From positions 1-27,420 of the forward strand of contig JAISCU010000113.1 in the NCBI GenBank assembly GCA_031265345.1: DNA of 27,420 nucleotides. Direction: 5' to 3'. A program made the translations under genes and the position numbers. This stretch comes from Bifidobacteriaceae bacterium. Lineage in GTDB: Bacteria > Actinomycetota > Actinomycetes > Actinomycetales > WQXJ01. The notes below the pieces were generated by a model. It had not been told where the DNA came from, did no database searches, and saw only the letters and a list, made by a program, of their open reading frames with translations. Each line of letters starts with the position of its first letter. Position 1 is the stretch's first letter. Positions 534 to 27,420 of this stretch are shown one piece after another.

Positions 534-567
534 CACGCGGCCCTCGGCTCTCCAAGTGCTGCCATGG

Positions 568-2045: not shown

Positions 2046-2050
2046 ATAGT

Positions 2051-2122
2051 TGCCGGAGCATCACCGTCACCGGTTCCTCTCATCCTCAGTGCGCACGGGT
2101 CACCATCAAGAGGGCCCACGCC
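2051..2122. repeat. Imperfect direct repeat, copy A
   Basis: The block at 2051-2070 matches 2158-2177 at 18 of 20 positions, and the block at 2101-2122 matches 2207-2228 at 18 of 22 positions. The two blocks are separated by about 30 less similar bases in both copies. The pairing of two conserved blocks at the same spacing argues against chance. Confidence 0.5.
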
Positions 2123-8683: not shown

Positions 8684-9876
8684 GAGACGCTCGCCCGCAG
8701 CAGGTCCAGCCAACCAGCGCCGACCAAGGCGCAGGCCGGGGCCAAGACCAAAGCCAACGCCTCCAGCCAATCGCCCAGTCGCGACAGGCCGACCGAGCGG
8801 ACCCCCCGCGAGGCCAGCATGGAGGCGCCGAAGAGCACCGCCGCCAAACCGAACCCCGCCGCGGCGGTCGCCGGTCCAAGGCTGAGGCGCGACCCGACGG
8901 CGACCACCACCTCGATGGCCACCGCCGCGCTGGCGTAGCGGGCAGCCCTGCGGACCAGCCGATCAGTGGCGGATCGCGGCACCAGTGCCAGTCCCACCGC
9001 CGCCAGCGAGCCAGCCACCGGGGCCAGGAAACTGAGGTTCCCGCCGCGCGGCCACGCGCCCAAGAGCGCGGGCGTCAGAGCGACCGTCGCCGCGCAGACG
9101 CAGATCGCCGTGGAGCGCAATCGCAGTTCGGCCGTGCGCATCAGGTGATCCACGGCGGCGGTCCGGATGGGCCGGGGCGCGCCGGTCATCGACCCGCGCA
9201 CAGTCCATTTGGCGGTGGCGTTGGCGGCCACATCGACCAGTTGCTCCACCGGCACCTTCAAGGCTATGCCGGGACTCATCCGCAACGCCAAAGGGCCGAA
9301 CCCGGCAGCCGCCGCGACCACGGCCGCGGGCCAGCCGGCCACCGCCGCCACCGTCCAACCGGCCGCCAGCACGCAGACCGTCGCCGTGACCGGCCACGCC
9401 ACTGGCCGCCAGCGAGCCGGACCGGCCGTCGACACCAGCACGCCGACAGCCGCAGCCGTCAGGGCGGCTAGGGCCAAGACCAAAGTGTGGCCGCGCCAGG
9501 GGCCGGGCCAGGAGTCGGTCACCAGCCAGCCCGCCACCGCCGCCACCGCCAGACCGGCCGCCACAACCAGCCCGATCCGGTCGGCGCGGCGCCCCGCCAC
9601 CGGATCGGCGCCCCGCGGGCGACGGCCAGTGGTCGGCGCGCCTGGGATGGCGCCGGAAGCGGCGACCACCGCCAAGACCTCGCCATCTTCCAGAACGTCC
9701 CCGACCAGCGATGTCAGGTCGAGGCGCTGGCCATCGGAATCGAGCACCAAGGTGGTCAGGCCGTCCGCCCGCAATCCCATGGCGCCCAGTCCAACATGTA
9801 AAGGAACGTCTTTGGGCAGCGCCACGTCGAGCCGCCCGCCCGGCGCACAGACCGTCAATCGGCAGTGATCCGCCAT
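8680..9876 (-). CDS. Second, diverged EccD-like membrane protein
   Basis: 398 residues. The start at 9876 is set by an AGGGGGG ribosome site seven bases upstream and by the domain that begins there; the frame is open further up without support. Residues about 1-75 look like the ubiquitin-like domain of EccD (CRLTVCAPGGRLDVALPKDVP ... LEDGEVLAVV). A basic linker (GRRPRGADPVAGRRADR) leads to about nine or ten hydrophobic helices. The loop after the fourth helix (LALRMSPGIAL, then KVPVEQLVDVAANA) resembles the loop in the canonical EccD at 3924-5267. It is shorter than usual EccD. It is transcribed divergently from eccC and coupled by ATGA to the RDD gene. It may pair with the other EccD or serve a separate accessory function; the family call is by architecture. 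Confidence 0.75.
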   Translation of the reverse strand: MADHCRLTVCAPGGRLDVALPKDVPLHVGLGAMGLRADGLTTLVLDSDGQRLDLTSLVGDVLEDGEVLAVVAASGAIPGAPTTGRRPRGADPVAGRRADRIGLVVAAGLAVAAVAGWLVTDSWPGPWRGHTLVLALAALTAAAVGVLVSTAGPARWRPVAWPVTATVCVLAAGWTVAAVAGWPAAVVAAAAGFGPLALRMSPGIALKVPVEQLVDVAANATAKWTVRGSMTGAPRPIRTAAVDHLMRTAELRLRSTAICVCAATVALTPALLGAWPRGGNLSFLAPVAGSLAAVGLALVPRSATDRLVRRAARYASAAVAIEVVVAVGSRLSLGPATAAAGFGLAAVLFGASMLASRGVRSVGLSRLGDWLEALALVLAPACALVGAGWLDLLRASVS

Positions 9877-10088
9877 CCTCGTACCCCCCCTGAAGCCGCG
9901 CTGATCAACCACTTTGATGAAACCACACGGCTGTGTCTCCCCGAAATCCGCTGTCCGCCTGGGCCGGTCCCGGACCACCGGGGGCTCGCGGTGACCGGCG
10001 AGGGCGTCAGCCCTTGATAGCCTAGTACCCATCGGGGTTCGGTCACGCCATCGGCCGGGCCCATTGGGGGCGGACACAAGGGGGCGGT
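9877..10088. promoter_or_regulatory. Divergent intergenic region between EccD-like gene and eccC
   Basis: 212 bases that must hold promoters for both directions. On the plus strand, TAGCCT (10018-10023) and the overlapping TAGTAC (10023-10028) could be -10 elements, but I see no well-spaced -35. The G-rich stretch just before 10089 serves as the eccC ribosome site, and the C-run near 9884 is the ribosome site of the minus-strand gene. Confidence 0.4.
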
Positions 10089-13000
10089 ATGGTGGCGTCG
10101 GCAATCGGGCGCGCGCCTTCGCGCCTCGCGCCCCCATCCCCGCCGCGCGGCGAGATCAATCTTGAGGTTCCGCCTGAGTTGACCGCCTCCGACGGCTCGT
10201 CTTCCCTGCTGACCAGCCTGTTGCCGATGCTCGGATCGATCGGGGCGGTCGTGATGGTGGCGTTGACGGGCTCTGGCAAGGGAAGCTACATAGCCGCCGG
10301 GATGTTCCTGCTGTCCTCGATCGGGTTTGTCGGCATCAACGGCTGGCGGCAACGTTCGCAGGCCCAGGCGGCGTTGCTGGCCCAGCGCCGGGAGTACCTG
10401 GTCTACCTGACCGACCTGCGCGAGACCGTCCGCACAGCCGGGCGCGCCCAGCGCCGGTTCGGCCTGTGGCAGGCGCCAGTTCCCGAATCCTTGGTCTACC
10501 TGGCGGAGGAACAAGCCAGGCTGGGCGAACGGAACAACACCGAACCGGATTTCCTGTTCGCCCGCTGCGGCACCGGGGACCAGCCCTTGAGCCTGGAGCT
10601 GGTCGAACCGGAGATCCCCACCCTGGCCCAGGTCGATCCGATCGCCGCCTCGGCCTGCCACCGGTTCATCACCGCCCACCGCCTCCAGCACGATCTGCCC
10701 GTCAACGTGGATGTCCGCGAGCACTCCCGGATCGAGATTGTGGGACCGGCCGGACAGCCGGCGCAGTCGCTGGCCCGAGCCATGATCTGCAACCTCGCTG
10801 TCTTCCACAGCGCCGAGGACCTGCAGATCGCCATTCTGGCCGAACCGGACAACCTGGCGGACTGGGAGTGGGCCAAATGGCTGCCGCACGTCCAATCGAC
10901 CCATGTCAAGGACGGCATCGGCACGGCCCGAATGATCGCGCCGGTGCTGACCGAGATCGCCGACATGCTGCCGCCCGAGCTGGCGGACAGGCCCCGGTTC
11001 AGCCCCGACGGCGACATCCAGACGCCGCACCTGCTGGTGGTCTTGGACGGCTGCGAATTGCCGCCGGACAGCGCTTTGGTCGGCTCCGATGGCGCGCTCG
11101 GCGTGACGTTCCTGGCGCTGCCGAGCCGGTGGGGCCAACTCGAGGCCGCCTCGACCCTGCGGATCGAACTGCGCCGCAGCGCCGATGCCGCTCCTGGGCG
11201 AGTGTCCGCGGGGCTGGTCCGAAAGGGGCGCGAGAACGTCTTCTGCCTGGCCGACCAGTTGAGCGTGGCGGAGGCGGAGGCCACGGCCCGGCGTCTGGCC
11301 AAGTCAGCGGCCGCCGGAACGTCGGGCGGATCAGACGCGCCCGGCCGGAGTTCGGCCGAGATCACCGACCTGCTGCGCCTGGGCGACATCCGCGACCTCG
11401 ATCCAGCGCAGGCCTGGCGTCCGCGCGCGGCCCGTGACCGCCTGCGCGTGCCGATCGGTCTGACGCCCGAGGGACGGCCCATCGCGCTCGACATCAAAGA
11501 GGCCGCCCAGCAGGGCATGGGGCCGCATGGCCTGATAATCGGCGCGACCGGCTCCGGCAAGTCGGAGGTCCTGCGCACGCTGGTGCTGGCGCTGGCGCTC
11601 ACCCATTCGCCGGAAGCCCTCAACTTTGTGCTGGCGGACTTCAAGGGTGGCTCGGCCTTCAACGACTGGGAGGATGTGCCGCACGTCTCCGCCATCATCA
11701 CCAACCTGGAGAAGGAGCTGCCGTTGGTGGACCGCATGCAGGACGCTCTGCGGGGCGAGCTGAAGCGGCGCCAGGAGCTCTTGCGGGAAGCCGGCAACTT
11801 CGCCAACGTCTCCGAGTACAACAAGGCCAGGGCCACCGAGCGCCCGGACCTCGCCCCGCTGCCGGCTTTGCTGATCGTGGTCGACGAGTTCTCCGAGATG
11901 CTCTCCTCGAAGCCCGATTTCGCGGACACCTTCGTTCAGATCGGACGGCTCGGGCGATCCCTGGAAGTGCACCTGCTGTTGGCCTCGCAGGTCCTCGAGG
12001 AGGGCAAACTGAAGGGCTTGGAGTCCCACCTGTCGTATCGGATCGGCCTCAAGACGCTGTCCGCCGCCGATTCGCGGACCATCCTGGGCGTGCCGGACGC
12101 CTACGAGTTGCCCAACCAGCCCGGGGTGGGCTATCTCAAGCCCGACCCGAGCACCCTCATCAGGTTCAGGGCCGCGTACGTCTCGGGTCCGCCGCCGCGC
12201 CGTCGCCGGGCCAGGCCGCAGGGGCGCGGCGCCGACCCGCAAGGCCAGGTCGAGTACTTCACGGCCGCTCCGGTGGCGGCCGCCGCCAGGCCCGTCGAAC
12301 CGGAGCCCGATGCCGCCGACCAGACTCCCGAGGAAGTCGAGACTCGGTCGACCTTCAAGTTGGCAGTCGGCCGGATGTCCAGCCACGGGCCCCAGGCCCA
12401 TCGCATCTGGCTGCCACCGCTGGTGGTCCCGGCCACGCTCGATCAATTGATGCCGGACCTGGCGGTCGACCCCCACGGCGGCCTGCTCTCGCTGCGCTGG
12501 CGCGGAGCGGGCGAATTCACCATCCCGGTGGGAGTGGTGGACCGTCCGGCCGATCAGCGCCAGGACACCCTGTCGCTGTCGCTGTCCGGCGGCGGCGGCC
12601 ACCTGGCCCTGGTCGGCGCGCCCAGGAGCGGCAAATCGACTTTCCTGCGAACCATTGTCTGCGGCATCGCGCTCACCCACACCCCGCTCGAGGCGCAGTT
12701 CTACGTCCTCGACTTTGGCGGCGGCGCTTTCACGCCGTTGGCCCACCTGGCCCATGTCGCCGGGGTGGCGGCCCGCACCGACGCGGAAGCGGTCCGCCGG
12801 ACGGTGGCGGAGATCAAATCGATTCTGAACGCCCGCGAACTGTTCTTCCGCGAGCACGGGATCGACTCGATCGAGACCTACCGGTTGCGGCGTTCGCGCG
12901 GCCAGGCCGATGACGGCTACGGCGACATCTTCTTGGTCGTGGACGGCTGGGGCACGCTGCACTCGGAGTTCGAATTGCTCGAGGACGCCGTCACCGACAT

Positions 13001-14093
13001 CACCGCCCGCGGCCTGACCTATGGCATCCATGTCATTGTCTCGGCCGCCCGGTGGCTGGAGATCAGGCAGAACGTCCGCGACTTGCTCGGCTCGAAGGTC
13101 GAACTGCGCCTGGGTGAGACGAGCGACTCGGTCATCGACCGCAAGGAGGCTCAGAACGTCCCCCTGTCGGTCCCTGGGCGCGGCCTTGAATCGGGGCGCC
13201 ATCACATGCTGGGCGCACTGCCGCGAATCGACTCCCAAACCGATGTCGCCTCGCTGGCCGATGGCGTGGACGCGCTGATCGCGGCGGTGGGCGGAGCCTG
13301 GACCGGACCGGCTGGCCCGAAGCTGAAACGGTTGCCGACCTTGTTGCCGTTGGCCGAGCTCCAAGCCGCCGCCGACCCGTCGGACCGGCAGATCCTGCTC
13401 GGCTTGGACGAGGACGAACTGGCGCCGACCGGGCTGGACCCTCGCAAAGAGGCGCTGCTCTACCTGTACGGAGACTCCGGATCCGGCAAATCGACCATGC
13501 TGCGAGCCTTCGCCCACGAGGTCATGCGCCTGTATTCGCCCAGCGAGGCCCAAATCGTCGTGGTCGACTACCGCCGGTCGCTCCTGGGCGACCTGCCGAA
13601 GGAGTATCTGAGCGCCTACCTGACCACCCGCGACCAGGCCAGCCAGGAACTCGCCGGGCTGGCCCAATTCTGCAACAGCCGCCTGCCCGGCCCAGACGTC
13701 ACCCCGACCCAGCTGGACCAGCGCTCCTGGTGGACGGGCGCGGAAGTGTTCGTGCTGGTGGACGACTACGACCTCGTGGCCACCACCCAGGGGAACCCGC
13801 TCGCCGCGCTGGCCCCAGCCCTGGATCAGGCGGCCGACGTGGGCCTGCATCTAGCACTGACCAGGCGCTCCGGCGGCGCCGCCCGAGCCAGTTTCGATCC
13901 CATCATCCAAAAGCTGACCGACCTCAGCGCTACCGGCATCCTGTTGTCCGGCAGCCCCGACGAGGGCCAACTGATCGGCCGGGTCAAAGCCGAACCCGCC
14001 ATCCCCGGGCGGGCCAAAGTCATCAGCCGGGCGCGGGGCCTGTTCGCGGCGCAGTTGGCTTTCCAGCCCAAGGCGAGGCTGGGAGATGAGTAA
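10089..14093 (+). CDS. eccC: EccC, three-domain FtsK/SpoIIIE-type ATPase of the ESX secretion system
   Basis: 1334 residues, a fused EccCa/EccCb form. Two membrane helices (about 40-90) are followed by a stalk domain, then three ATPase domains. Domain 1 has Walker A GATGSGKS (485-492) and Walker B IVVDE (D599, E600), so it looks catalytically competent. Domain 2 has GAPRSGKS (843-850), with VVDG at D952 and no catalytic Glu. Domain 3 has GDSGSGKS (1128-1135), with LVDDYD at D1225. In studied EccC proteins the first domain powers transport and the last ones bind substrate signal sequences, which agrees with this pattern. The start ATG follows a GGGGGCGG ribosome site. The gene overlaps the giant Ig/Fn3 gene by eight bases, which indicates translational coupling. 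It is the motor that would recognise the YxxxD-bearing WXG100 pair. Confidence 0.96.
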   Translation: MVASAIGRAPSRLAPPSPPRGEINLEVPPELTASDGSSSLLTSLLPMLGSIGAVVMVALTGSGKGSYIAAGMFLLSSIGFVGINGWRQRSQAQAALLAQRREYLVYLTDLRETVRTAGRAQRRFGLWQAPVPESLVYLAEEQARLGERNNTEPDFLFARCGTGDQPLSLELVEPEIPTLAQVDPIAASACHRFITAHRLQHDLPVNVDVREHSRIEIVGPAGQPAQSLARAMICNLAVFHSAEDLQIAILAEPDNLADWEWAKWLPHVQSTHVKDGIGTARMIAPVLTEIADMLPPELADRPRFSPDGDIQTPHLLVVLDGCELPPDSALVGSDGALGVTFLALPSRWGQLEAASTLRIELRRSADAAPGRVSAGLVRKGRENVFCLADQLSVAEAEATARRLAKSAAAGTSGGSDAPGRSSAEITDLLRLGDIRDLDPAQAWRPRAARDRLRVPIGLTPEGRPIALDIKEAAQQGMGPHGLIIGATGSGKSEVLRTLVLALALTHSPEALNFVLADFKGGSAFNDWEDVPHVSAIITNLEKELPLVDRMQDALRGELKRRQELLREAGNFANVSEYNKARATERPDLAPLPALLIVVDEFSEMLSSKPDFADTFVQIGRLGRSLEVHLLLASQVLEEGKLKGLESHLSYRIGLKTLSAADSRTILGVPDAYELPNQPGVGYLKPDPSTLIRFRAAYVSGPPPRRRRARPQGRGADPQGQVEYFTAAPVAAAARPVEPEPDAADQTPEEVETRSTFKLAVGRMSSHGPQAHRIWLPPLVVPATLDQLMPDLAVDPHGGLLSLRWRGAGEFTIPVGVVDRPADQRQDTLSLSLSGGGGHLALVGAPRSGKSTFLRTIVCGIALTHTPLEAQFYVLDFGGGAFTPLAHLAHVAGVAARTDAEAVRRTVAEIKSILNARELFFREHGIDSIETYRLRRSRGQADDGYGDIFLVVDGWGTLHSEFELLEDAVTDITARGLTYGIHVIVSAARWLEIRQNVRDLLGSKVELRLGETSDSVIDRKEAQNVPLSVPGRGLESGRHHMLGALPRIDSQTDVASLADGVDALIAAVGGAWTGPAGPKLKRLPTLLPLAELQAAADPSDRQILLGLDEDELAPTGLDPRKEALLYLYGDSGSGKSTMLRAFAHEVMRLYSPSEAQIVVVDYRRSLLGDLPKEYLSAYLTTRDQASQELAGLAQFCNSRLPGPDVTPTQLDQRSWWTGAEVFVLVDDYDLVATTQGNPLAALAPALDQAADVGLHLALTRRSGGAARASFDPIIQKLTDLSATGILLSGSPDEGQLIGRVKAEPAIPGRAKVISRARGLFAAQLAFQPKARLGDE

Positions 14094-17000
14094 CCGGCGG
14101 GCCGGGACCAGCCAAACCAGGCGGGCCAGCGGAAAGCGGAAGGGCGGCATCGTGCAACGGCTGGGTGGCCGGAAAATCCTCCGCTTCTGGCCTATCGCCC
14201 TGCCGCTGGCGCTGGTGGCGGCGGCCATAGTAGACGACGGTTTCCCGGTCAAACAGGTGGACCTCCACGACGCCTCGGTCTGGATCACCAACACCGCCGC
14301 CGGCCAAGGGGCGATCGGCCGGTTCAACGCGCCGATCGCGGAACTGACCGGCGGGGTCCGCAACGAGGTCGCGGCGCTCGACGTGCTGCAGGCCGGCAAC
14401 CAGATCCTGTCCGTGAACCCGACCAGTCTGAGCGGGCTCGACCCGGTGGCGGTCGCCTTGGACACCGCCGTCGGTCTGCCAGCCGACACCATGACCGCTA
14501 TAGGCGGCGGCCAAGTCGCGGTCCTGGCGCCCGCCCATGGCGACCTCTGGGTCAGGCCGTTCGAGCAGATCGCGGCCCTGAGCACGGGCGAGGACGAACC
14601 CGACCTGAGCCTCGGGGCAGGGGCCATGATGGCGGTCGGCCCGGACGGATCGGTGTTCGGCGTCACCGCCTCCGGCCAAGGCCACGTCTTGACACCCGGC
14701 CGCGCTCCCGGCCAGGACCAGGTGACCGAACCACTGCCGGACCTCACCGGTCGGCTCGAACAGGCCACCGTGGTCGGCTCGACGGTCTACGTGCTGGCCG
14801 GGACAACGCTGGCCTGGCCGGGCGGTTCGGTCGACCTCGGCGGACACGGCGACGCCTTCCAACTCCAACAGCCCGGCACTGGCGGAGGCGACGGGGGCGG
14901 CCAGGTCGATGGAGACGGGGGCGGACCCGGCGGCAGCGGGAGTGGCGGCGTGCTGGTGGCCTCGAACCGTCAGCTGCTGCGGGCCGGACCGGACGGCGTC
15001 GAAGTGGTGGCCGAGCCAGGTGGGCAGGAAGGCGGCGGCGGGCAGAGCGGACAGGGCGCGGCGGCCCAACCGGTCGGCATCGGCGGCTGTGTCTACGCGG
15101 CCTGGGCCTCGCCGGAGCAGAACTACGTCAAGACTTGCTCCGGGGGCGAACCGGAAGTGCTCACCCTGGAAGGCGTGAACCAGACCAGCCGCCTGGTCTT
15201 CCGCGTCAACCGTGACGTGGTGGTGCTGAACGACACCGTCGACGGGCGCGTCTGGCAGCCCGACGAGTCGCCCAAAGTGATCGTGCCGAACTGGGACCTG
15301 CTGGACCAGGGCGAGGATGAGGACGACCCGCAAGACGATCAGGACCCCGACTTCGCCGAAGAGCTCGACTGCGACAACCAGGCCGGTTCGCCCACCGCCG
15401 TGGACGATTCCTACGGCATCCGGCCCGGCGCCACGGCGATTCTGCCGGTGCTGGAGAACGATTCGACACCGAGCTGCGGGGCGTTGTCGATCGAGTCGAT
15501 TGTGCAGGTGGCGGAGAGTTTCGGGGAGGCCTTGGTGATTGCTGAGGGGAGGGCCGTCCAATTCACGGCCGCCCCGGACGCCACTGGGACGGCCGAATTC
15601 GAGTACTCCGTGTCCGACGGCTCGGTGGCGGGCGCCCCGGCGACGGGTCATGTCGCGATCGCGATCCAAGCGGAGGGCGTCAACGGCGCCCCGGCGGCCC
15701 TGGCGGACGCGACGGCGACCATCGAGCAAGGCGCCGAGACGACCATCGACGTGGCGCAGAACTTCCGCGACCCCGACCTCGACCCATTGACGCTGGTCGC
15801 GGCCGTCCCCGGTGAGGGCTTGAGCGTCCGGGCCGATCCGTCGGGACGGGTCACCGTCGCGGCCGAGGGTCTGCCGGGCAACCGCACCGTCCAAGTGACC
15901 ATGTCTGACGGCCTGGCCAGCGCGGAGGGACTGATCCGGGTCTCGGTCATGCCCCCGCGCAGCCTCACGCCGCGAATGGCGCCGATCAAAGTCAACGCCT
16001 ACGCCGGGCAGCGGGCCACCATCAACGTGCTCGAATCGGTTCGCACCGGCACCGTCGAGGCGGTCAAATTGGCGGCTGTCCCGGAGGTGGTCGGGTTGGA
16101 CATGACCGCTGATCTGGAGTCCTCGACCATCGAAGTCGCCAGCTCCACGCCGGGGACCTACAACGTGGCGTACACGGTGGTGGCGGGAGCGAAACAAGGC
16201 CAGGGCGTGGCCCGTGTCGATGTGCTGGCCTATCCGACAACGCCGCCCAAGCCGGTGGCGGTCCTGGACGTCGCCTACGCGACGGCCGGGGCCGAGACCA
16301 CTGTCGCGCCGTTGGCCAACGATGTCGCGCCGACCGAATCGGTCAAACTGCTGGGCGCGGTCTGGGCGGCGGACGGCGCCGACGTCTCGGGCCTCAAGCT
16401 GGCCACCGTCCACCACCAAGCCCTTCAGCTCCTGCCGAACCAGGAGATCACCGAGCCGATCACGCTGCACTACAACCTGGTCGTGGACGGACAGGTGGTG
16501 CCCGGCTCGATCCGCCTGCTGGGGGCGGCGCAGGGTCTGGGGCAGCCCCCCACGGTCGAAGACATGACCGTCACTGTGCGCACCGAAGGCGTGGTGTCGG
16601 TGCCGGTCCTGGACCACGCCGTCGATCCGGAGGGCCAACCGCTGAGCGTCGATCCGGAATTGGCCGGCTGCGCGAATGAGGGCGAGGGCCTCGCCTTCGT
16701 GGCCGGGAACCTGGTCCGCTACCAGGCCCCCGCCCAGGCGGTCTCCGTCCAGTGCGTCTTCACCGTGCGCGATCCCGACGGCAACGCCGCCTCCGCCGCG
16801 TTGACCATCAACGCCCGGCCCTCGGCGGGCTTGGACAAGGAGCCCCCGGCGCCGCAGGATCTGTCCGGGCGCGTCATCGCGGGCGAGAAGACCCGCATCG
16901 CGGTGCCGCTGACCGGGATCGACCCGGACGGCGACGGGGTGCTGCTGCAAGGGTTGGCCAGCGCTCCGGAGAAGGGGCGCATCACGGCGGTCGGGGCGGA

Positions 17001-20000
17001 CTTCCTCGAATACGAGGCGTTGCCCGGCGAGGAGGGCACCGACACGTTCACCTATGCGGTCGAGGACTGGGTCGGGTTGCGCTCCACCGCCACGGTCAGG
17101 GTCGGCATTGGGCCGGAATCGTCCGACGAAGTCTCGGTGATGGCGCGCGACGACCAGGTCACGCTGCGTCCGGGCACGGCCTTGAGAGCCGATGTCCTGG
17201 CCAACGACTTGGAGACGAACGGTGCGCCGCTGTCGCTCTGCGGCGAGCCGGTGGTCGGGGACCTCGGGCTCGAAGTCGCCTTCGTGGACCAGGCGATCGA
17301 CTTGGCCGCGCCCGCCGAGCCAGGCGCCTACGCGATCGGCTACACCGCTTGCAACGAGTTCGGCCAGGAATCGAGCGCCGCCCTGAGCGTGATAGTCGAT
17401 CCGGAGGCCCCGATACTGGCGCCGGTCGCCAAAGACTCGGTCGTCTCGCCGAAGGAGACGCGGAACAAGAGCGCGGTCACGGTCGAAGTGTTGGAGAAGG
17501 TGTCGAACCCATCCGGTCCGCTGTCCGACCTCGCCGTCGAACTGCTGGACGCGGACTTGGACGCTGACCTGGGCGCGGGCTCGGGCGCGGGTCCAGGCGC
17601 TGGCTCGGACGTGGCCAGCGTGACCGCCGATTCCTCGATCCGAGTCAACCTGGGCGACGAGCCCAGGACCCTGGCTTTCCGGGTCACCAACGTGGCGCCC
17701 GAAGCGGAAGGCGTCCACTCCTATGCCTTCGTCTACGTGCCTCGGGAAGGGACTTTCCCGCCGGTGCTGCGCCCCCGCGCGGACGGTTTGGAGGTGCGCG
17801 CGGGCGTGCCCCAAACCATCGAGCTGGCCTCGATTGTCCAAGTCGGTCCCGGCAAGGAGCCGTGGCTGATCAACCCCGACTCGATCAGCGCCACCAAATC
17901 GGACGGTTCTGCCCTGCACAAGGACGATTCCCAGACCTTGGTCTACACAGCCCGGCCGGACTACGCCGGTCCCGCCTCGATCACCTTCGAGGTGACCGAC
18001 GGCGAGACGCCGACCGACCCGAACGGCATCCGCTCGACTCTGACCCTGCTGGTCAACGTGGTGGGACAGGACCAGCAGCCGCCAAAGCTGAAAACGGCGA
18101 TCCTGCGCTGCGCTCTGGACGAAGAGGCCGCCACAGTGGACCTGGCGCCGCTCGCCTCGGTTCCCGGAGTGCCGAACCCCCAGGGTCTGACCTTTGAGCG
18201 GGCCTCCGCCAGTCCCGAGGGTTTCGACGTCTCCCTGGAAGGTTCGGTGCTCCGGGCCCAAGCTGTCAAGGGCGCCGAAGTGGGCCTGGGCGCCTCGATC
18301 GCGATCAACGTCTCCTACCTCGGCGTGACCGGCCAGGGAAGCGTCAATCTGCAGGTGGTGGCCTCGCGCCGACCCCTGCTGGTGTTGGCCCAGATGCCGC
18401 CTCAGCGATCGACCGGCGAACCGGTCAGCGTCGACGTCCTGGCCGGCGCCGCCAACCCGGTGCCGAACCTGGGGCCGCTAAGCGTGGTCACGGGCGCGGG
18501 CGGACCGGCCGTGATGCCGGACACGGCGGCGGAGGTGTCAACCGACGGCTCGGTCATTACCGTGACGCCCCGAGCCGGGTTCAGCGGCACCGCGCGGGTC
18601 GTCTACAGCGCCAATGACGCGCTCGACTTGCCGGAGCGGATCGCCCGCGGGAGCTTCGACCTGGTGGTCGTGGGCCTGCCCGAACCGCCGGGGCGCCCGC
18701 GGGCGATCGGCACCGTGTTCGACGGCAAGGTCGACCTGCAATGGGACACGCCTCGATCCAACAACGCCGACATCGACCATTACCTGGTCGAATGGAGCGG
18801 CGGCCGCCAACAGTGCGCGGCTTCGCCCTGCACCATAGTCGACCTGCCGATGGGCGTGCGCTACACCTTCTTGGTCAAAGCCCATAACGAGGTCGGCTAT
18901 TCGCAGCCCAGCGAAGTGTCGGTGCCGGTGCTGGTCGACGTCCCGCCAGCCGCGCCGCCGTCTCTGAGCGTCGAAGTCTCCGACCGCCAAGCGGTCCTCC
19001 AATGGACCCAAGCGGCCAGCCAAGGCTCGCCGGTGACCAGCTACAGCCTTCAGATCGCCACCGACGCGGGCCAGATCGACACCATCACCGTGGCCGGGAG
19101 CGCGCTCAGCCACGCCCTGAGCGATCTGGTCAACGGGCGCACCTACACGGCCCGTCTGCAGGCCCACAACACTTCCGACAGCCCCGGTCCCTGGAGCGAT
19201 TCGGTCTCCTTCGTGCCGTTCGGGCCGCCCGGCGCGCCCGGACTCGAATTGGTCCACGCAGCCGGCGCGGGCAGTGTCGCCGTCAGCTGGACGGCGGGGG
19301 TGGCGAACGGATCGGACGCCGTCGCCACCACGGTTGTCCTGGAGGACACCACGGGCGGGGCGTCCACCACCTTGGCCGAGGACGACACCCGCGGCTCGGG
19401 GAGTTCCGAAGCGGCGGCCGCGGCCGGTCACACCTATCGGGTGCGTGCCACCAGCTCCGCCTCCGGCCAGGCCGGTCCGGAGCAGTCGGCCACTTTGACC
19501 ATGTGGGACGCGCCCGATCAGCCGACCATCGAAAGAGTCCCCGACGGCCAGCGGCAGACCTCCGTCGATTCCGGGAACGTCGAATTGAAGTGGGGCGGCG
19601 GTTCCCCCGGCTGGCTCGGGTCCACTGACTACGGGCTCGCCTACCGGGTGACGGTGGCCAACGCCGCGGCGCCCGGCACGGTTCTGATGGAACGGACCAG
19701 CTCGGAGCCCGCGGCCCAGGCCTTCGGGTTGGACGCTCCCGGGACCTATCAGGCCCAGGTGACGGCGTGCTTGACCGGTCTGCCGGGCGGCGCCGGCGCC
19801 TCGGACGCCAATTCGTGCGCCTCGAAGTCGATCTCGTTCGTCCTGGAGGCCCCGCCGGAGCCGCCGGCGCCGCCGACCCCGCCGGTCGAACCGACGCCGG
19901 ACCCGACGCCGGATCCCCCTGGCGAAGGCGATCCGCCGCAGTCCTCGGCCGGGCTGTCCGCGCGCGCGGGTGCCTGGGTAGTGGAGCGCGGCGCCCCACC

Positions 20001-20082
20001 AGGGCTCGCATCGCCGTGGTGGTACCGGCCGGAACGGCGCGATTTCTGGCCAGATTTCAGATTGAAAGGACTATTGCGGTGA
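14086..20082 (+). CDS. Giant membrane-tethered Ig-like / fibronectin type III surface protein
   Basis: 1998 residues. A basic start and one membrane helix (about 31-49) give an N-in, C-out anchor. Residues about 60-400 look like a beta-propeller-like module interrupted by Gly-rich loops (266-290). An Asp/Glu-rich linker (405-430) follows. Residues about 438-1530 hold roughly ten to twelve cadherin/Ig-like repeats with motifs such as VDDSYGIRPGATAILPVLEND and DVLANDLETNG. Four Fn3-like domains come next (about 1531-1622, 1623-1712, 1713-1807, 1808-1922), the first with a clear core (GKVDLQW, GVRYTFLVKAHNEVG). A Pro-rich stretch and an aromatic, basic end (SPWWYRPERRDFWPDF) finish it; there is no LPXTG sorting motif. 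GAGG lies seven bases before the ATG. In Bifidobacterium an Fn3 protein with the same neighbours (MoxR, DUF58, transglutaminase) forms the PFNA cluster. An adhesin or cell-envelope scaffold linked to the ESX complex is the likely role. Confidence 0.9.
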   Translation: MSNRRAGTSQTRRASGKRKGGIVQRLGGRKILRFWPIALPLALVAAAIVDDGFPVKQVDLHDASVWITNTAAGQGAIGRFNAPIAELTGGVRNEVAALDVLQAGNQILSVNPTSLSGLDPVAVALDTAVGLPADTMTAIGGGQVAVLAPAHGDLWVRPFEQIAALSTGEDEPDLSLGAGAMMAVGPDGSVFGVTASGQGHVLTPGRAPGQDQVTEPLPDLTGRLEQATVVGSTVYVLAGTTLAWPGGSVDLGGHGDAFQLQQPGTGGGDGGGQVDGDGGGPGGSGSGGVLVASNRQLLRAGPDGVEVVAEPGGQEGGGGQSGQGAAAQPVGIGGCVYAAWASPEQNYVKTCSGGEPEVLTLEGVNQTSRLVFRVNRDVVVLNDTVDGRVWQPDESPKVIVPNWDLLDQGEDEDDPQDDQDPDFAEELDCDNQAGSPTAVDDSYGIRPGATAILPVLENDSTPSCGALSIESIVQVAESFGEALVIAEGRAVQFTAAPDATGTAEFEYSVSDGSVAGAPATGHVAIAIQAEGVNGAPAALADATATIEQGAETTIDVAQNFRDPDLDPLTLVAAVPGEGLSVRADPSGRVTVAAEGLPGNRTVQVTMSDGLASAEGLIRVSVMPPRSLTPRMAPIKVNAYAGQRATINVLESVRTGTVEAVKLAAVPEVVGLDMTADLESSTIEVASSTPGTYNVAYTVVAGAKQGQGVARVDVLAYPTTPPKPVAVLDVAYATAGAETTVAPLANDVAPTESVKLLGAVWAADGADVSGLKLATVHHQALQLLPNQEITEPITLHYNLVVDGQVVPGSIRLLGAAQGLGQPPTVEDMTVTVRTEGVVSVPVLDHAVDPEGQPLSVDPELAGCANEGEGLAFVAGNLVRYQAPAQAVSVQCVFTVRDPDGNAASAALTINARPSAGLDKEPPAPQDLSGRVIAGEKTRIAVPLTGIDPDGDGVLLQGLASAPEKGRITAVGADFLEYEALPGEEGTDTFTYAVEDWVGLRSTATVRVGIGPESSDEVSVMARDDQVTLRPGTALRADVLANDLETNGAPLSLCGEPVVGDLGLEVAFVDQAIDLAAPAEPGAYAIGYTACNEFGQESSAALSVIVDPEAPILAPVAKDSVVSPKETRNKSAVTVEVLEKVSNPSGPLSDLAVELLDADLDADLGAGSGAGPGAGSDVASVTADSSIRVNLGDEPRTLAFRVTNVAPEAEGVHSYAFVYVPREGTFPPVLRPRADGLEVRAGVPQTIELASIVQVGPGKEPWLINPDSISATKSDGSALHKDDSQTLVYTARPDYAGPASITFEVTDGETPTDPNGIRSTLTLLVNVVGQDQQPPKLKTAILRCALDEEAATVDLAPLASVPGVPNPQGLTFERASASPEGFDVSLEGSVLRAQAVKGAEVGLGASIAINVSYLGVTGQGSVNLQVVASRRPLLVLAQMPPQRSTGEPVSVDVLAGAANPVPNLGPLSVVTGAGGPAVMPDTAAEVSTDGSVITVTPRAGFSGTARVVYSANDALDLPERIARGSFDLVVVGLPEPPGRPRAIGTVFDGKVDLQWDTPRSNNADIDHYLVEWSGGRQQCAASPCTIVDLPMGVRYTFLVKAHNEVGYSQPSEVSVPVLVDVPPAAPPSLSVEVSDRQAVLQWTQAASQGSPVTSYSLQIATDAGQIDTITVAGSALSHALSDLVNGRTYTARLQAHNTSDSPGPWSDSVSFVPFGPPGAPGLELVHAAGAGSVAVSWTAGVANGSDAVATTVVLEDTTGGASTTLAEDDTRGSGSSEAAAAAGHTYRVRATSSASGQAGPEQSATLTMWDAPDQPTIERVPDGQRQTSVDSGNVELKWGGGSPGWLGSTDYGLAYRVTVANAAAPGTVLMERTSSEPAAQAFGLDAPGTYQAQVTACLTGLPGGAGASDANSCASKSISFVLEAPPEPPAPPTPPVEPTPDPTPDPPGEGDPPQSSAGLSARAGAWVVERGAPPGLASPWWYRPERRDFWPDFRLKGLLR

Positions 20083-21047
20083 TCCCATCCCAAGTAGGCG
20101 CGTTCACGGCGGCTTTCCGGGCTTTGTCCGATGCCGTCGGCACAGTCATCCTGGGACGGCCGCAGGCCATTCGCCTGGTCGCGGTCGCCCTGCTGGCTCG
20201 CGGCCATGTGCTCCTCGAGGACGCGCCCGGGACCGGCAAGACCCAGCTCGCCAGATCGATCTCCGCCGTGGTCTCCGGTGTCCACAACCGGATCCAGTTC
20301 ACGCCCGACCTGCTGCCGTCCGACCTGCTGGGCGTCAACGCCTACGATCCGCGCGACGCTAGTTTCCAGTTCCGTCCCGGCCCGGTGTTCTGCAACATCC
20401 TCTTGGCGGACGAGATCAACCGGGCCTCCCCGAAGACCCAGTCGGCTTTGCTGCAAGTCATGGAGGAGGGGCGGGTCACCATCGACGGCGAGACCCGGCC
20501 AGTGCCGGCGCCGTTCTTGGTGATCGCCACCCAGAACCAGCATGAGAAGCAACTCGGCGGCGTCTACGAGCTGCCAGCCGCCCAAATGGATCGCTTCTTG
20601 ATCAAGACCTCGATCGGCTATCCCGGCCATGAGGCGGCCATGGCCATCCTCGAGCAATCCGGCGAGATGGACCGCTCGGCCCGGTTGGCGCCCTTGATGA
20701 CGACCGATCAGATCAGCGAGCTGGCCGAGGCGGCCGCCACCGTGGCGGTCGACAAGTCCGTGATCGACTACGCGCTGCGCCTGTGCGAGCTGACTCGCGA
20801 AGACCCCAAGCTGGCCGTCGGCGTGTCCGTCCGAGGCACCTTGGCCCTGGTCCGCGCCGCCAAAGTGTGGGCGCTCAGCGCGGGGCGCCCGTTCGTCATC
20901 CCCGACGACATCAAGCAGCTGGTCAAGCCCGTTCTTGCGCACCGGGTCATCCTGGAACAGGACGAGGCCTTCGGGGACACCACGGCTGAACAAGTCTTGG
21001 CGGACATCCTCGAGCGGACCGCTCCTCCGGCGGACCGTGGCGCCTAG
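20079..21047 (+). CDS. MoxR-family AAA+ ATPase
   Basis: 322 residues. The GTG at 20079 overlaps the stop of the Ig/Fn3 gene (GTGA), and AAAGGA lies eight bases upstream; the longer open frame upstream is inside the fn3 gene and is discarded. Walker A is APGTGKT (K54), Walker B is LLADEINR (D111, E112), sensor 1 is VIATQN, and the C-terminal lid (VSVRGTLALVRAAKVWAL) is typical of MoxR. MoxR proteins work as chaperone-like ATPases, usually with VWA or DUF58 partners; a DUF58 gene follows directly. Here it may help assemble or activate the giant surface protein or the membrane complex (inference). Confidence 0.95.
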   Translation: MIPSQVGAFTAAFRALSDAVGTVILGRPQAIRLVAVALLARGHVLLEDAPGTGKTQLARSISAVVSGVHNRIQFTPDLLPSDLLGVNAYDPRDASFQFRPGPVFCNILLADEINRASPKTQSALLQVMEEGRVTIDGETRPVPAPFLVIATQNQHEKQLGGVYELPAAQMDRFLIKTSIGYPGHEAAMAILEQSGEMDRSARLAPLMTTDQISELAEAAATVAVDKSVIDYALRLCELTREDPKLAVGVSVRGTLALVRAAKVWALSAGRPFVIPDDIKQLVKPVLAHRVILEQDEAFGDTTAEQVLADILERTAPPADRGA

Positions 21048-21066
21048 CCGGAGCCGGAAGCCGATC

Positions 21067-22305
21067 ATGGAGGCGCGGGCAAAGGCACCGCCGAGGGCGT
21101 TTGGGAGAGCGCTGGGGAGAGCGCTTGGCGGAACCTTCTGGGGGACGCTCCGCGGCGCCGTCAGCCCCTTCGGTTGGACAGTCCTGATCCTGGCCGGCGT
21201 GCTGGGCGTCTTGGGCTGGTGGTTCGACTGGCCCGAACTGCTGATCCCGGCGGCCGGGCTGGGCGCCGCTTTCCTGGTCGGAGTGGTGGCTTGTCTGGGC
21301 GAGTCGAGTTTCCGGGTGACGATCCATCTGAGCCGCGACCGCGTCACCGTTGGCCAGCCGGCCGAGGGCTTGGTCCGGGTGGTCAACGAGCGCCGGCGCC
21401 GGAGTCTGCCCGCCGCGCTCGAACTGCCGGTCGGGAACCGCCGTCCAGTTTGGACCGTGCCGTCGCTTCGGGGCGGCGGGGTGTTCGAGCGGCGGTTCGA
21501 GGTCGACACCAGTCGGCGGGCGCTGGTCGAGGTGGGGCCGGCGCGGTCCGTCAGAGGTGATCCGTTGGGCTTGGTGACGCGGTCGGCCCGGTGGTGCGAT
21601 CCGGTCGGGCTGTACGTGCGACCGGCCACCGTGCCGCCACGCAACATGGGCGCCGGCCTGTTGCGGGATCTGGAGGGACAGGCTACCCGCGACCGAGCCG
21701 ATTCCGACCTGTCCTTCCACACCGTGCGCGAGTACCGGGCCGGCGACGACAGACGGCACATCGCCTGGAAGCCAACCGCCAGACTGGGGTCTCTGATGGT
21801 CCGCGAGTTCGAGGACACCCGCCTGACCCAACTGGGCCTGGCCCTGGCGACCGATCTTGAATCCTACAGCCGCTGGCGGGACTTCGAGTTGGCGGTCAGC
21901 GTGCTGGCCTCGCTCGGGCTGTTCGGCCTGCAGGCCGGATTCGAGGTTCGCGCGTTGGCCGGGGCCGCCGAACTGCGGGCCGGGCGCAAGCAGACCATGC
22001 TGGACGACTGCTGCCCTTTGGAGGCCTCGACCAGTGGTTGGACCGCCCCCAAGATGGTGGCGCGGCTGGCCCAGAGGATGCCCGCCGCCACTTTGACCGC
22101 CGTGATCGCCGGGCGCGAGGCTGACTCAGCCGCCGTCCGGGCTGCCGCGCGTTCGCGGCCGACGGGCGCCCGCAGCCTGATCGTCACGGCGAGCGACGGC
22201 GCGCCCGGCCAGGCCCGAGCGCTGGGCGCCTTGTCTGCGGTGACGATCGGGCGGCTGGAGGACCTCCCGCGTCTGCTGGCGGCGGCGGTGAGTCATGGCG
22301 GCTAA
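21067..22305 (+). CDS. DUF58 domain membrane protein
   Basis: 412 residues from ATG 21067, which has GGAAG six bases upstream; an in-frame GTG at 21037, overlapping the moxR stop, would add ten residues and cannot be excluded. Two membrane helices (about 37-51 and 57-77) are followed by a beta-rich domain and the DUF58 signature TVREYRAGDDRRHIAWKPTA (219-238). A VWA-like fold makes up the rest. The common signature reads IHW where this protein reads IAW. DUF58 proteins are typical partners of MoxR ATPases. The gene overlaps the next one by eleven bases. Its role in the cell envelope is presumed from context. Confidence 0.92.
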   Translation: MEARAKAPPRAFGRALGRALGGTFWGTLRGAVSPFGWTVLILAGVLGVLGWWFDWPELLIPAAGLGAAFLVGVVACLGESSFRVTIHLSRDRVTVGQPAEGLVRVVNERRRRSLPAALELPVGNRRPVWTVPSLRGGGVFERRFEVDTSRRALVEVGPARSVRGDPLGLVTRSARWCDPVGLYVRPATVPPRNMGAGLLRDLEGQATRDRADSDLSFHTVREYRAGDDRRHIAWKPTARLGSLMVREFEDTRLTQLGLALATDLESYSRWRDFELAVSVLASLGLFGLQAGFEVRALAGAAELRAGRKQTMLDDCCPLEASTSGWTAPKMVARLAQRMPAATLTAVIAGREADSAAVRAAARSRPTGARSLIVTASDGAPGQARALGALSAVTIGRLEDLPRLLAAAVSHGG

Positions 22306-24571
22306 GACCGCGCCGAGGCCTGCAGCCCTGGTCGGCGACCTGGCGGCGATCGGCTTGCTGATCGCGCTGGCGACAACCCCTTTGGTGCCGGTGTTCGGAC
22401 TGGCGGTCCTGCTCCGGGCCGTGGTCGGCGGCATCGTCGGAGCCTTGGTGGTAACCCTGGCCATCTCCTGGCTGCGCTGGCGGCTACCGGCTGGGCTGGC
22501 GGCGATCGCCTGCGGTTATGTGCTGGCGGGCACGCCAGCCGCCGTCCCGGCCGCCGCCGCTTGGCAGGTTCTGCCGACCTGGACGTCGCTGCGTCTGCTG
22601 GTCCGGGGCCTGGCCTCGTCGTGGAAGGACATCCTGACGGTGCCGGTGCCGATCGGCGCGGGCGGCGGTTTCGCGGTGGCGCCCTTCGCCCTGAGCTACT
22701 TGGCGGTTGCCGCCGCCTGGCTGATGCTGACGCGATTCTCGCAGGCTCGGCGGCCCCTGGCCGGATTGGTGCCGGTGGTGGTGGCGGCGATCTGCCTGGT
22801 CCTGCGCGCGCAGCCGTCTTTCCAGGCTGTGGCCGCAGGCCTCGCGGCCACGATCGGCGCGCTGGTCTGGGTGGCGCACCGGCGCGGCAGTTTCCAACGG
22901 CGGCGGGTCGTGGCCGGCCTGGTCATGGTCGCGGTGATCGCGGCGGCCGGGGTCGGGGCTGATCGCTGGCGGGCGCGGTCCGCGCCGGAGCGCCTGGTGG
23001 TCCGCGAGCACGTCGTCCCGCCGTTCGACCCGTCCGCCTTGGCCAGTCCGTTGGCGGCCTACCGGCACTATGTGCGCGACCTGGACCAGGCCGAGTTGGC
23101 CACGGCCCAGGGTCTGCCAGCGGATCAACCGCTCCGTCTGGCGACCATGGACGCCTTCGACGGGATCGTCTGGAACGTCGCCGGGCCGGAGTCGTCGGGT
23201 TCGGGCGAGTTCGTGCGACCGGCCGCGGCGGATGTTCCAGAGCCGGGCGGTGATCGCGTGGATGTCACCATCACGGCCGCCGGTCTGGGCGGCGTTTGGC
23301 TGCCCACGGTGGGCCGGCCGTCCCGGATCGAGTTGATCGACCAGGACCCGGCGCTGACCGACTCGGTGCGCGTCAATTCGCAGACCAATGCCGCCGCGCT
23401 GCCCGGCGGCCTGCCCGACCAGCTCAGCTATCGGCAGTCCGGCTGGGCGCCGCCGCCCGACGCGTCCCAGGTGATGCTGGCCGGTCCGGGGCGCGCGCTG
23501 GTTCCGCAGGCCGAATCCATTCCCGATCCGGTCCTGGCCGCGGCCTCGACCTACACGGCCGACACGGCGACCGCTGGCGAAGCCGCCCTGGCCCTGGCTG
23601 AGGGCTTGCGCCGCGACGGTTACTTCGCGGACGGCTCCGCGACCGCTGGCCCGGCGGTCTCGATGGCCGGCCACGGTTCGGCTCGGATCGACACCCTGTT
23701 CCTGCAGGAACCGATGGTGGGCAATTCCGAACAGTACGCCTCCGCCATGGCGCTGATGGCGCGCAGTCTGGGCCTGGGGTCGCGCGTCGTGCTGGGCTTC
23801 CCGCCGGCTGAGCTGGGGGACGATGCCGCTCAGTCGGCCCCGCGACCGGGCGCGGCCGAGGGCTCGGTCGTCTTCACCGGTGCCGACTTGACCGCTTGGG
23901 TCGAGATCGACCTGGCGGGCCTGGGCTGGGTGTCCTTCTATCCCACTCCCGACAAGAACAAGACGCCCGAGCAGGTCAGTGAGACCAAACAGAGCCAGCC
24001 GCAGCCGCAACAGCTGCCTCCGCCCCTGCCCAATCCGCCGCCTGCCGCCCCGCCCGAATCGGACACGGCCGGCTCCTCCCTGGGCGGCTCGGACGCCGCC
24101 GATGACCAGCCCGTTGGTCCCTGGTCCAGGCTGGTCGCCCTGGTGGGCGGTCTGTCTTTGGCTGTGCTGATCATGGTGATGACCCCGATCGCCATGATCG
24201 GGCTGTGGAAGCGCCGGCGACGGCGACGCCGCGAACACGCGCCCGATCCGCGACGCCGCCTGATGGGCGGCTGGGACGAGGTCGTCGACCTGCTGGTCGA
24301 TCTGCGGGCGCCGCCCGCGCCCCGAAAGACCCGTCTGGAGCAGGCCGACCAGGCCGGCCAGGCGCTGGGCGGCGAAGCGCACGGAATGCTGGTCCTCCTG
24401 GCGACCGCCTCCAACGAGGCCCACTTCGCTCCCTATGAGCCGTCCGAAGCTGTCGCCAAGACTTATTGGTCGTCGCTGCGTCAGGTCGAGCGGACGGTCA
24501 CAGCCGGGCGTTCGCGGCGTCAGCGCTGGCGCGCGCGGTTGTCGACCCGCTCGCTGCGTCGCCGGCCCTGA
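22295..24571 (+). CDS. Transglutaminase-like membrane protein with degenerate catalytic triad
   Basis: 758 residues. The N-terminus has about six membrane helices (10-225), followed by an extracytoplasmic region with the transglutaminase-like core, a Gln/Pro-rich linker (about 565-600), one more membrane helix (about 612-636) and a basic cytosolic tail. In the usual family the active Cys sits in GxCEQ(F/Y)A and the His in HAWVE, with the Asp in DPTP. Here these read GNSEQYA (Ser478), TAWVE (Thr533) and YPTP (Tyr549), so all three appear replaced. The fold is otherwise well kept (SAMALMARSLGLGSRVVLGF, GLGWVSFYPTP). It may be a non-catalytic binding protein. It ends the eccC-fn3-moxR-duf58 operon, with an eleven-base overlap with DUF58. 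Related Bifidobacterium clusters have a transglutaminase gene (tgm) in this place. Confidence 0.88.
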   Translation: MAAKTAPRPAALVGDLAAIGLLIALATTPLVPVFGLAVLLRAVVGGIVGALVVTLAISWLRWRLPAGLAAIACGYVLAGTPAAVPAAAAWQVLPTWTSLRLLVRGLASSWKDILTVPVPIGAGGGFAVAPFALSYLAVAAAWLMLTRFSQARRPLAGLVPVVVAAICLVLRAQPSFQAVAAGLAATIGALVWVAHRRGSFQRRRVVAGLVMVAVIAAAGVGADRWRARSAPERLVVREHVVPPFDPSALASPLAAYRHYVRDLDQAELATAQGLPADQPLRLATMDAFDGIVWNVAGPESSGSGEFVRPAAADVPEPGGDRVDVTITAAGLGGVWLPTVGRPSRIELIDQDPALTDSVRVNSQTNAAALPGGLPDQLSYRQSGWAPPPDASQVMLAGPGRALVPQAESIPDPVLAAASTYTADTATAGEAALALAEGLRRDGYFADGSATAGPAVSMAGHGSARIDTLFLQEPMVGNSEQYASAMALMARSLGLGSRVVLGFPPAELGDDAAQSAPRPGAAEGSVVFTGADLTAWVEIDLAGLGWVSFYPTPDKNKTPEQVSETKQSQPQPQQLPPPLPNPPPAAPPESDTAGSSLGGSDAADDQPVGPWSRLVALVGGLSLAVLIMVMTPIAMIGLWKRRRRRRREHAPDPRRRLMGGWDEVVDLLVDLRAPPAPRKTRLEQADQAGQALGGEAHGMLVLLATASNEAHFAPYEPSEAVAKTYWSSLRQVERTVTAGRSRRQRWRARLSTRSLRRRP

Positions 24572-24636: not shown

Positions 24637-24909
24637 ATGTCGATGGTTGTCGGCGTGGCCCAGGCCCATAACCGCCTATCTGAGCTGATTGATCAGGCGT
24701 TGTCTGGCACCGACGTGATGATCGCCAGACGCGGTGAGCCAGCGGTCAAGCTGGTGCCGGTGTCGGCGGCCAGCGAGGCTTTGCCGAGCGGCGCCGCGAT
24801 CGCCGCAAGGATGGCGGATCGACTTGCCGATCGGTCCGGCGCGGCGCACGCGGTGACGGAGGACGATCTTGCCGCGCACATTGAACGCGAACGGGAGTCG
24901 TGGCAGTGA
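24637..24909 (+). CDS. Type II antitoxin, Phd/YefM family
   Basis: 90 residues. The N-terminal half has the Phd/YefM DNA-binding fold pattern: VVGVAQAHNRLSELIDQAL, then a strand-turn VMIARRGEPAVKLVPV. The C-terminal half is charged (EDDLAAHIERERESWQ) and would wrap around the toxin. GGGAGAG lies six bases before ATG 24637. It overlaps the PIN toxin gene by four bases (GTGA). It most likely neutralises the toxin and represses its own promoter through the palindrome at 24583-24615. Confidence 0.9.
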   Translation: MSMVVGVAQAHNRLSELIDQALSGTDVMIARRGEPAVKLVPVSAASEALPSGAAIAARMADRLADRSGAAHAVTEDDLAAHIERERESWQ

Positions 24910-25310
24910 TCTACCTCGATGCTTGCTTCCTGATTTACGCTGTCGAAGGAATCGGGCCCAGGGGCGATGCGGCCCGCCGGGCGCTGGGCGGTGCCGCGTC
25001 CGGCCAACGCTTCGCGATCAGCCCGCTGGTTGCGATGGAGTGCCTGGTCAAGCCATTCCGCCAGGCGGACCTGCGGCTGGAAGATGATTACCGAGCGGCC
25101 TTCACGGATTTCGAGATGCTGACGATTCCGCCAACGGTCTTCGAGCGGGCCGCCCGGTTGCGTGCCAGTGCCCGGATCAAGACGCCCGACGCGTTGCACT
25201 GGGCGATCGCCCACTCGGCCGGGTGTCGGCGGCTGTGGACCGGTGACGCCGGCCTCGCCGCCGCAGCAAAGGGCTTCGCGATCGACCCATTTGTCGACGT
25301 GAGCCCGTGA
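24906..25310 (+). CDS. vapC: PIN-domain toxin, VapC type ribonuclease
   Basis: 134 residues from GTG 24906, which overlaps the antitoxin stop and has GGGAG eight bases upstream; a GTG at 24900 is too close to that site. The PIN-domain acidic residues are present: D5 (IYLDACFLIY), E45 (LVAMECL), D95 (KTPDALH) and D114 (WTGDAGL), so it should be an active Mg-dependent RNase that cleaves specific RNA. It ends one base away from the convergent gatD stop, with no room for a terminator. Confidence 0.92.
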   Translation: MIYLDACFLIYAVEGIGPRGDAARRALGGAASGQRFAISPLVAMECLVKPFRQADLRLEDDYRAAFTDFEMLTIPPTVFERAARLRASARIKTPDALHWAIAHSAGCRRLWTGDAGLAAAAKGFAIDPFVDVSP

Positions 25311-27365: not shown

Positions 27366-27420
27366 GCCTTCTAGCCTGCCATTAACTCTGTGCCCCCGCC
27401 GCCCGGCCTCGCGACCACGC

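Follow-up and report, generated by a model that had tools for sequence, protein, structure and literature searches.

The stretch analysed here, called the window throughout, comprises 27,420 nucleotides of contig JAISCU010000113.1 from a Bifidobacteriaceae bacterium. Read from the order of its ESX genes, it holds a type VII secretion (T7SSa) cluster first and then the motor gene of that cluster heading a set of PFNA-like genes, with the following features.

568..2070, minus strand: mycosin-like S8 protease (PF00082 52 bits; TIGR03921 53 bits, below its cut-off)
2818..3108, minus strand: WXG100 protein (TIGR03930 60 bits)
3291..3602, minus strand: WXG100 protein (TIGR03930 48 bits, cut-off 44.85)
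3924..5267, plus strand: EccD (PF19053 70.5 bits, cut-off 30; PF08817; TIGR03920 64 bits, below its cut-off of 95)
5272..7950, plus strand: EccB fused to a mycosin-like subtilase (PF05108 228 bits; PF00082 114 bits; TIGR03919 195 bits, cut-off 154)
7925..8770, minus strand, start uncertain: zinc-ribbon and RDD membrane protein (PF06271 30.3 bits, cut-off 24.1)
8680..9876, minus strand, start uncertain: YukD/EccD-like multi-span membrane protein (PF08817 21.6 bits, below its cut-off of 27)
9877..10088: divergent intergenic stretch upstream of eccC
10089..14093, plus strand: eccC, fused EccCa and EccCb motor ATPase of ESX (T7SSa) (TIGR03924 888 bits, cut-off 509; TIGR03925 814 bits, cut-off 347)
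14086..20082, plus strand: fn3, Ig/Fn3 protein of 1,998 residues (Pfam, AlphaFold2 model, Foldseek, hydrophobicity)
20079..21047, plus strand: moxR, MoxR-family AAA+ ATPase (AAA_3/MoxR; PF07726 182 bits, PF17863)
21067..22305, plus strand: duf58, DUF58 protein with two N-terminal hydrophobic stretches (PF01882 34.2 bits, cut-off 23.4)
22295..24571, plus strand: tgm, predicted TgpA-like membrane protein, ectodomain about residues 250-556, Ser at the catalytic Cys position (Transglut_core and TgpA_N)

The last five genes form one tightly packed plus-strand unit behind the ESX cluster. The end of eccC (14093) overlaps the ATG of fn3 (14086) by 8 bases, the end of fn3 (20082) overlaps the GTG of moxR (20079) by 4 bases (GTGA), and the end of duf58 (22305) overlaps the ATG of tgm (22295) by 11 bases, while 19 bases separate the end of moxR (21047) from the putative ATG of duf58 (21067), which lies in a reading frame open from 20935. 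These coordinates agree with the three overlaps reported by the first-pass annotation, which had also read the PFNA-like order fn3-moxR-duf58-tgm here and noted the absence of a kinase and a phosphatase; the order is indeed present, and kinase, PP2C and FHA queries gave no match in the window at E 1e-3. A pattern scan found no terminator-like site on the plus strand at the eccC-fn3 junction. The promoter of the eccC-to-tgm unit probably lies in the stretch 9877-10088, where a promoter scan found no consensus promoter. Overall, the PFNA-like module of this genome appears to be transcribed together with the ESX motor gene eccC, presumably as a single transcript. Rfam and tRNA scans of the window were empty.

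In common with T7SSa and ESX-4-like systems, the window has EccB, EccC, EccD, mycosin-like proteases and two WXG100 proteins; EccC (both domains), EccB and both WXG100 proteins score above their cut-offs, and EccD lies above the Pfam and below the NCBIfam cut-off. It differs from these systems in the fn3 module behind EccC and in the EccB-mycosin fusion, whose subtilase domain is clear and whose mycosin (TIGR03921) score of 209 bits is below the cut-off of 279. The window EccC has two hydrophobic stretches near its N-terminus, as judged by hydrophobicity, and gave no FHA match. EccE gave no match among the window ORFs scanned, and some ESX-4 variants are described in PMC11217815 as lacking EccE. 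A homologue of the YukD/EccD-like protein adjoins EccC at locus L110, in a second Bifidobacteriaceae-like genome (G100), and at others, and homologues of the zinc-ribbon and RDD protein likewise adjoin EccC in other genomes. EccB and mycosin also share one frame in L111 (G100) and occupy different frames in L118, L127 and L141. Additional to the fused mycosin are the two adjoining mycosin-like S8 proteases at 3..536 and 568..2070 (minus strand), which are 82% identical over the 177 residues available of the first, cut by the window end. Beside the WXG100 genes lies a 140-residue ORF without a family match (2320..2742, minus strand), possibly a divergent ESX substrate.

The giant Ig/Fn3 protein begins with basic residues followed by a single hydrophobic stretch at residues 30-50, an arrangement like that of a Sec-dependent membrane anchor. 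A predicted beta-propeller-like domain occupies about residues 64-400 (AlphaFold2 model and Foldseek, with modest TM-scores by query of 0.24-0.48 among the matches listed), and Big_9/cadherin-like and Fn3 repeats follow; hydrophobicity revealed no C-terminal hydrophobic stretch. Its nearest relatives, at 65% (P0006) and 50% identity, are encoded in Bifidobacteriaceae metagenome genomes, followed by proteins of named Cellulomonas and Actinotalea at 36-38%, and a PDB sequence search returned Fn3-containing proteins such as titin. Export of this protein as a substrate of the ESX system is very improbable: adjacency to the motor gene speaks for it, whereas the N-terminus resembles that of a Sec-dependent anchor and the protein also occurs in genomes without a detected T7SS ATPase. 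The whole giant gene is often tandemly duplicated (L032, L035, L051, L057, L064, L071), with four consecutive copies in G272:C19.

The MoxR-DUF58-TgpA triad is common elsewhere. The TGM protein by itself brought no useful match in a PDB sequence search; the tgm family profile found TgpA of Pseudomonas aeruginosa (6g49). The tgm ectodomain is predicted to have the TgpA fold. Unlike TgpA, the tgm family has no Cys in the column that we take to hold the catalytic Cys of TgpA, just ahead of the point where the profile alignment begins. All 88 sequences compared (84 distinct, window included) lack it, with D in 48, G in 20, S in 11, A in 6 and E in 3, and the window carries Ser. An active transglutaminase is therefore rejected, and the name that the first reading had adopted for this gene, and that PFNA tgm bears generally, is misleading.

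The PFNA cluster comprises pkb2-fn3-aaa-atp-duf58-tgm, with prpC and fha in some cases, and is described in PMC8430577 as a host-signal operon and discussed there as a sensor of host immunity; neither 'secretion' nor 'eccC' appears in the main text of that source on PFNA. The window shares the order fn3-moxR-duf58-tgm with Bifidobacterium PFNA, and its giant protein is 32-34% identical to those of five Bifidobacterium loci. In these five a kinase lies upstream of fn3, whereas in the window eccC occupies the place of pkb2 and genes for kinase, PP2C and FHA proteins are lacking. Downstream sequence of 6 kb or more is available for 64 of the 79 fn3 loci of named genomes, and moxR, duf58 and tgm are all kept in 59 of these 64; in the remaining five, moxR is missing at that place in three and fn3 stands without the others in two. 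The latter are Arthrobacter fn3 homologues (L053, L067) that share a different neighbourhood.

The eccC-fn3 junction recurs beyond this genome. In L110, eccC is followed by fn3, moxR, duf58 and tgm, with eccC and fn3 spaced by -11 to +67 bases according to which start codon is taken, and a neighbouring stretch of the same genome carries genes for YukD-like, RDD, fused EccB-mycosin and EccD proteins. EccC and fn3 of L110 are 68% and 50% identical to those of the window, and an accident of one genome or a mis-assembly is rejected. Queries for kinase, PP2C and PFNA-type FHA gave no match on the G100 contig carrying eccC-fn3 (all but its first 2.1 kb). G100 also holds a second operon (L149), ordered kinase-fn3-moxR-duf58-tgm, whose MoxR falls among other members of that family in the tree, so that the ESX-linked operon is a separate paralogue in G100. 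Next after the window and L110 in the EccC tree (98*) comes G231, where a PFNA-type Ser/Thr kinase with a Pkinase domain (L131, 7838..9706) overlaps eccC by four bases and is closest, among the proteins compared, to the Actinotalea and Cellulomonas kinases encoded ahead of fn3, at 45-47% across roughly 270 residues. No fn3 lies in the 243 bases remaining behind this kinase, and with the kinase overlapping eccC, the idea that G231 has an EccC free of PFNA genes was dropped.

Further afield, fn3 is next after eccC in two Microbacterium loci (L044, L052), at 186 and about 216 bp from likely starts. The gaps contain inverted repeats (18 nt perfect and 43 nt at 91%), so eccC and fn3 are neighbours there rather than overlapping genes. 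Asked whether the junction was limited to this genome, the neighbourhood data thus answer no, on the strength of L110, L044 and L052. Across the 79 named fn3 loci, EccC lies in the flank of four: L038, L044, L052 and, in convergent orientation, L007. G012 has 6 kb between eccC and fn3 and holds two modules, one beside EccC without FtsK-C and another with FtsK-C, and in Actinotalea solisilvae (L125, L007; G003) a complete fn3 module converges on an EccC gene that lies about 2 kb away from tgm.

Direct eccC-fn3 order is nevertheless rare. The order to which G001 belongs was sampled with 198 genomes, of which 13 have the window's kind of EccC (EccC-A, at least 55% identity), 82 have fn3 and seven have both, and the two lay close together in only one of these seven, G100; EccC as the universal partner of fn3 is rejected on this count. 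Co-occurrence of fn3 with any EccC did not exceed chance (19/63/25/91, p 0.86). The commonest T7SS motor partner of fn3 found was instead FtsK-C1, an EssC-like protein of about 1,480 residues with an FHA domain at about residues 109-196 and FtsK domains. Its scores, 546 bits for the EssC model (cut-off 778) and 343 and 284 bits for the EccC models (cut-offs 509 and 347), fall below every cut-off, and it thus passes neither the EssC nor the EccC models; in the ATPase tree it forms a branch of its own, apart from all EccC rows and from the TsdC-like branch of a T7SSd-like cluster of Bifidobacterium. With the family defined at 42% identity or more plus split fragments, a cut set by eye, FtsK-C1 occurs in 55 genomes of the order sample, 42 of them with fn3 (counts 42/40/13/103, odds ratio 8.3, p 8e-10, not corrected for kinship).

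FtsK-C1 lies within 25 kb of fn3 in 24 of the 42 genomes, in all 24 on the same strand and about 10-19 kb downstream, against an expectation of at most 0.74; in the other 18 the two are on different contigs (10) or further apart on the same contig (8). The linked genomes are related and therefore not independent. Past the kinase, in Pseudarthrobacter (L147) and in the second fn3 operon of Microbacterium sp. ASV81 (L142, L143), the operon continues to FtsK-C1, and a small gene behind FtsK-C1 in L142 has a WXG100 score of 22.5, below the cut-off of 27.3. The 12 FtsK-C1 loci read all have fn3, moxR, duf58, tgm, PP2C, FHA and kinase genes. Nine are ordered fn3-moxR-duf58-tgm-(RDD)-PP2C-FHA-kinase-small FHA-like-ATPase; in three (L171-L173 with L227-L229), the order is PP2C-FHA-kinase-small FHA-like-fn3-moxR-duf58-tgm-ATPase, and these were rejected as minimal clusters without kinase and PP2C, since PP2C, FHA and kinase precede fn3 in L227-L229. 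The tgm and ATPase genes of L171 share four bases, and behind them come two WXG100 genes that score above the cut-off. Genes of the relatives were called by a codon scorer, which makes their starts uncertain and which performed poorly on L145 and L153; the tgm of L173, missed by the scorer, was found by tblastn.

This recurrent signalling set raises the question of whether the clustering reflects one signalling circuit rather than one machine, with kinase, PP2C and FHA proteins serving both the T7SS and an envelope module. Such a purely regulatory link is a live rival because every one of the 12 loci read has the kinase set, nine of them behind tgm and ahead of the ATPase and the other three ahead of fn3; the FHA domain within FtsK-C1 and the kinase overlapping eccC in G231 are further points in its favour. 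Even so, it is improbable overall: eccC and fn3 stay together in the window and on the G100 contig, which gave no match for these proteins over the scopes given above, the window EccC gave no FHA match, and in L171 it is tgm itself that overlaps the ATPase gene.

A different explanation, namely an independent cell-envelope apparatus, such as an adhesin or wall-maintenance device, with its own MoxR, DUF58 and TgpA-like helpers and with adjacency conferring shared expression only, draws on genomes in which the module stands apart from secretion. In the order sample, no T7SS ATPase was detected, at the thresholds used, in 17 of the 82 fn3 genomes. A same-strand T7SS ATPase lies within 25 kb of fn3 in 26 (24 FtsK-C1, one C2, one EccC-A), so that 56 of the 82 are without such a link, and in four more (G112, G168, G129, G221) a T7SS ATPase lies within 25 kb on the other strand. 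This linkage count leaves out second pieces of one fn3 gene; C2 rows were typed for 34 genomes and EccC-B rows for 21 of 31, those with fn3 all included. The Bifidobacterium and Cellulomonas loci read gave no EccC-like match in a 10 kb flank, a reach that an ATPase 17 kb downstream would escape, and the inverted repeats of L044 and L052 separate eccC from fn3. PFNA FN3 is also reported, in the main text of PMC8430577, to bind TNF-alpha and to act in adhesion. Taken with the evidence on the other side, this explanation is unlikely while keeping a real share of the probability: the 24 FtsK-C1 linkages are uniform in strand and direction, two gene orders in Microbacterium connect the module to ESX genes, and the joins in the window clade and in Microbacterium are separate.

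The Microbacterium evidence comes from 198 genomes of the genus. EccC was found at E 1e-250 or better in 50, was of the window's kind in 49 of these and was accompanied by fn3 in 26 of the 49. The two genes are at most 32 kb apart in 12 of the 26, all 12 on the same strand, against an expectation of 0.74; fn3 is upstream of EccC in nine and 3.4-6 kb downstream in three. The four of the nine that were read (L210-L215, L221-L226) run fn3-moxR-duf58-tgm-RDD-PP2C-FHA-kinase-FHA and, after 76-130 bp, eccD-eccB-mycP; beyond these lie additional genes, two of which are on the opposite strand, and then eccC with two WXG100 genes. The nine have one layout in common and could stem from a small number of events. 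A supported pair in the MoxR trees unites the window with L110, far from the Microbacterium rows, and at least two changes of EccC adjacency are forced by starred branches. Among the labelled rows, a minimum of four changes is required to account for the three joined states, in trees built by FastTree without bootstrap in which rows marked 'other' often end before linkage can be read. Linkage to T7SS genes is conserved in three arrangements.

T7SSd is among the closest published systems. Garrett et al. (2024) define types T7SSc to T7SSj, of which T7SSd of Olsenella and Bifidobacterium has a giant Ig-like protein, TsdI, and a kinase (PMC11217815, main text); MoxR, DUF58, transglutaminase, fibronectin, Arthrobacter, Microbacter- and Micrococc- have no occurrences in the main text of that source. 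The likeness lies in a single cluster that combines a T7SS ATPase with a kinase and a large envelope protein of Ig-like type, yet the window EccC differs in having no N-terminal FHA domain, and the window fn3 protein is unrelated in sequence to the TsdI-like protein of L145, itself assigned by gene order, and differs in topology, being without a C-terminal hydrophobic stretch. Homology between fn3 and TsdI was rejected at an hhalign probability of 0.6% against that L145 protein, and FtsK-C1 likewise stands on a branch separate from the TsdC-like row. The text of PMC5720513 mentions esx genes for Actinotignum, and literature searches limited to open-licence papers brought up none joining PFNA genes with a T7SS.

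The module is joined repeatedly, with consistent strand, to T7SS motors of two classes, and the gene orders number at least three; such a record would be difficult to account for if type VII secretion drew no benefit from the module. The reading preferred here, with a probability of about 0.53, is therefore that the PFNA-like fn3-moxR-duf58-tgm module is an accessory apparatus of type VII secretion, of which the window represents the ESX-motor version. An obligate joint machine is disfavoured by the 17 fn3 genomes without a detected T7SS ATPase and the 56 without a same-strand link. Of the joint machine proposed by the first-pass annotation for eccC and the downstream genes, the association of the module with T7SS stands on neighbourhood data; the machine as such is conjectural, given the rarity of direct eccC-fn3 order and the retention of the module in genomes without a detected T7SS ATPase. 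The picture is best matched by an accessory apparatus that certain lineages operate in the absence of a T7SS, PFNA in gut bifidobacteria being a possible case.

Accounts of how type VII secretion gets across the thick cell wall of monoderm Actinobacteria lack an outer part, for which a conserved cluster joining T7SS motors to a giant Ig/Fn3 protein with MoxR helpers offers a concrete candidate. As an accessory apparatus, the Ig/Fn3 protein would be held in the membrane by its N-terminal helix, with its propeller-like domain on the outer face and its long rod of Ig/Fn3 domains passing through the cell wall; the rod could guide or dock cargo from the EccB/C/D/mycosin pore, taking the place proposed for EsaA or TsdI in other T7SS types. 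MoxR, the membrane-bound DUF58 protein and the TgpA-like protein might act as chaperones that assemble or remodel the rod or its physical contact with the pore, and the kinase, PP2C phosphatase and FHA proteins beside the module in most relatives read probably regulate it. In a stronger form, to which somewhat less than even odds are given, the module would be a true component of an undescribed actinobacterial T7SS group, in which MoxR, DUF58 and an inactive TgpA homologue build an Ig/Fn3 rod that spans the wall, with either an ESX EccC or an EssC-like motor bearing FHA as the drive; bifidobacterial PFNA would be its remnant or orphan. The PFNA operon also gains a testable link to secretion.

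Directly behind tgm lies a gene pair resembling a Phd/YefM antitoxin and a PIN toxin (24637..25310), and beside the eccC-to-tgm operon, on the minus strand at 25312..27419, lie GatD and MurT-like genes (lipid II amidation).
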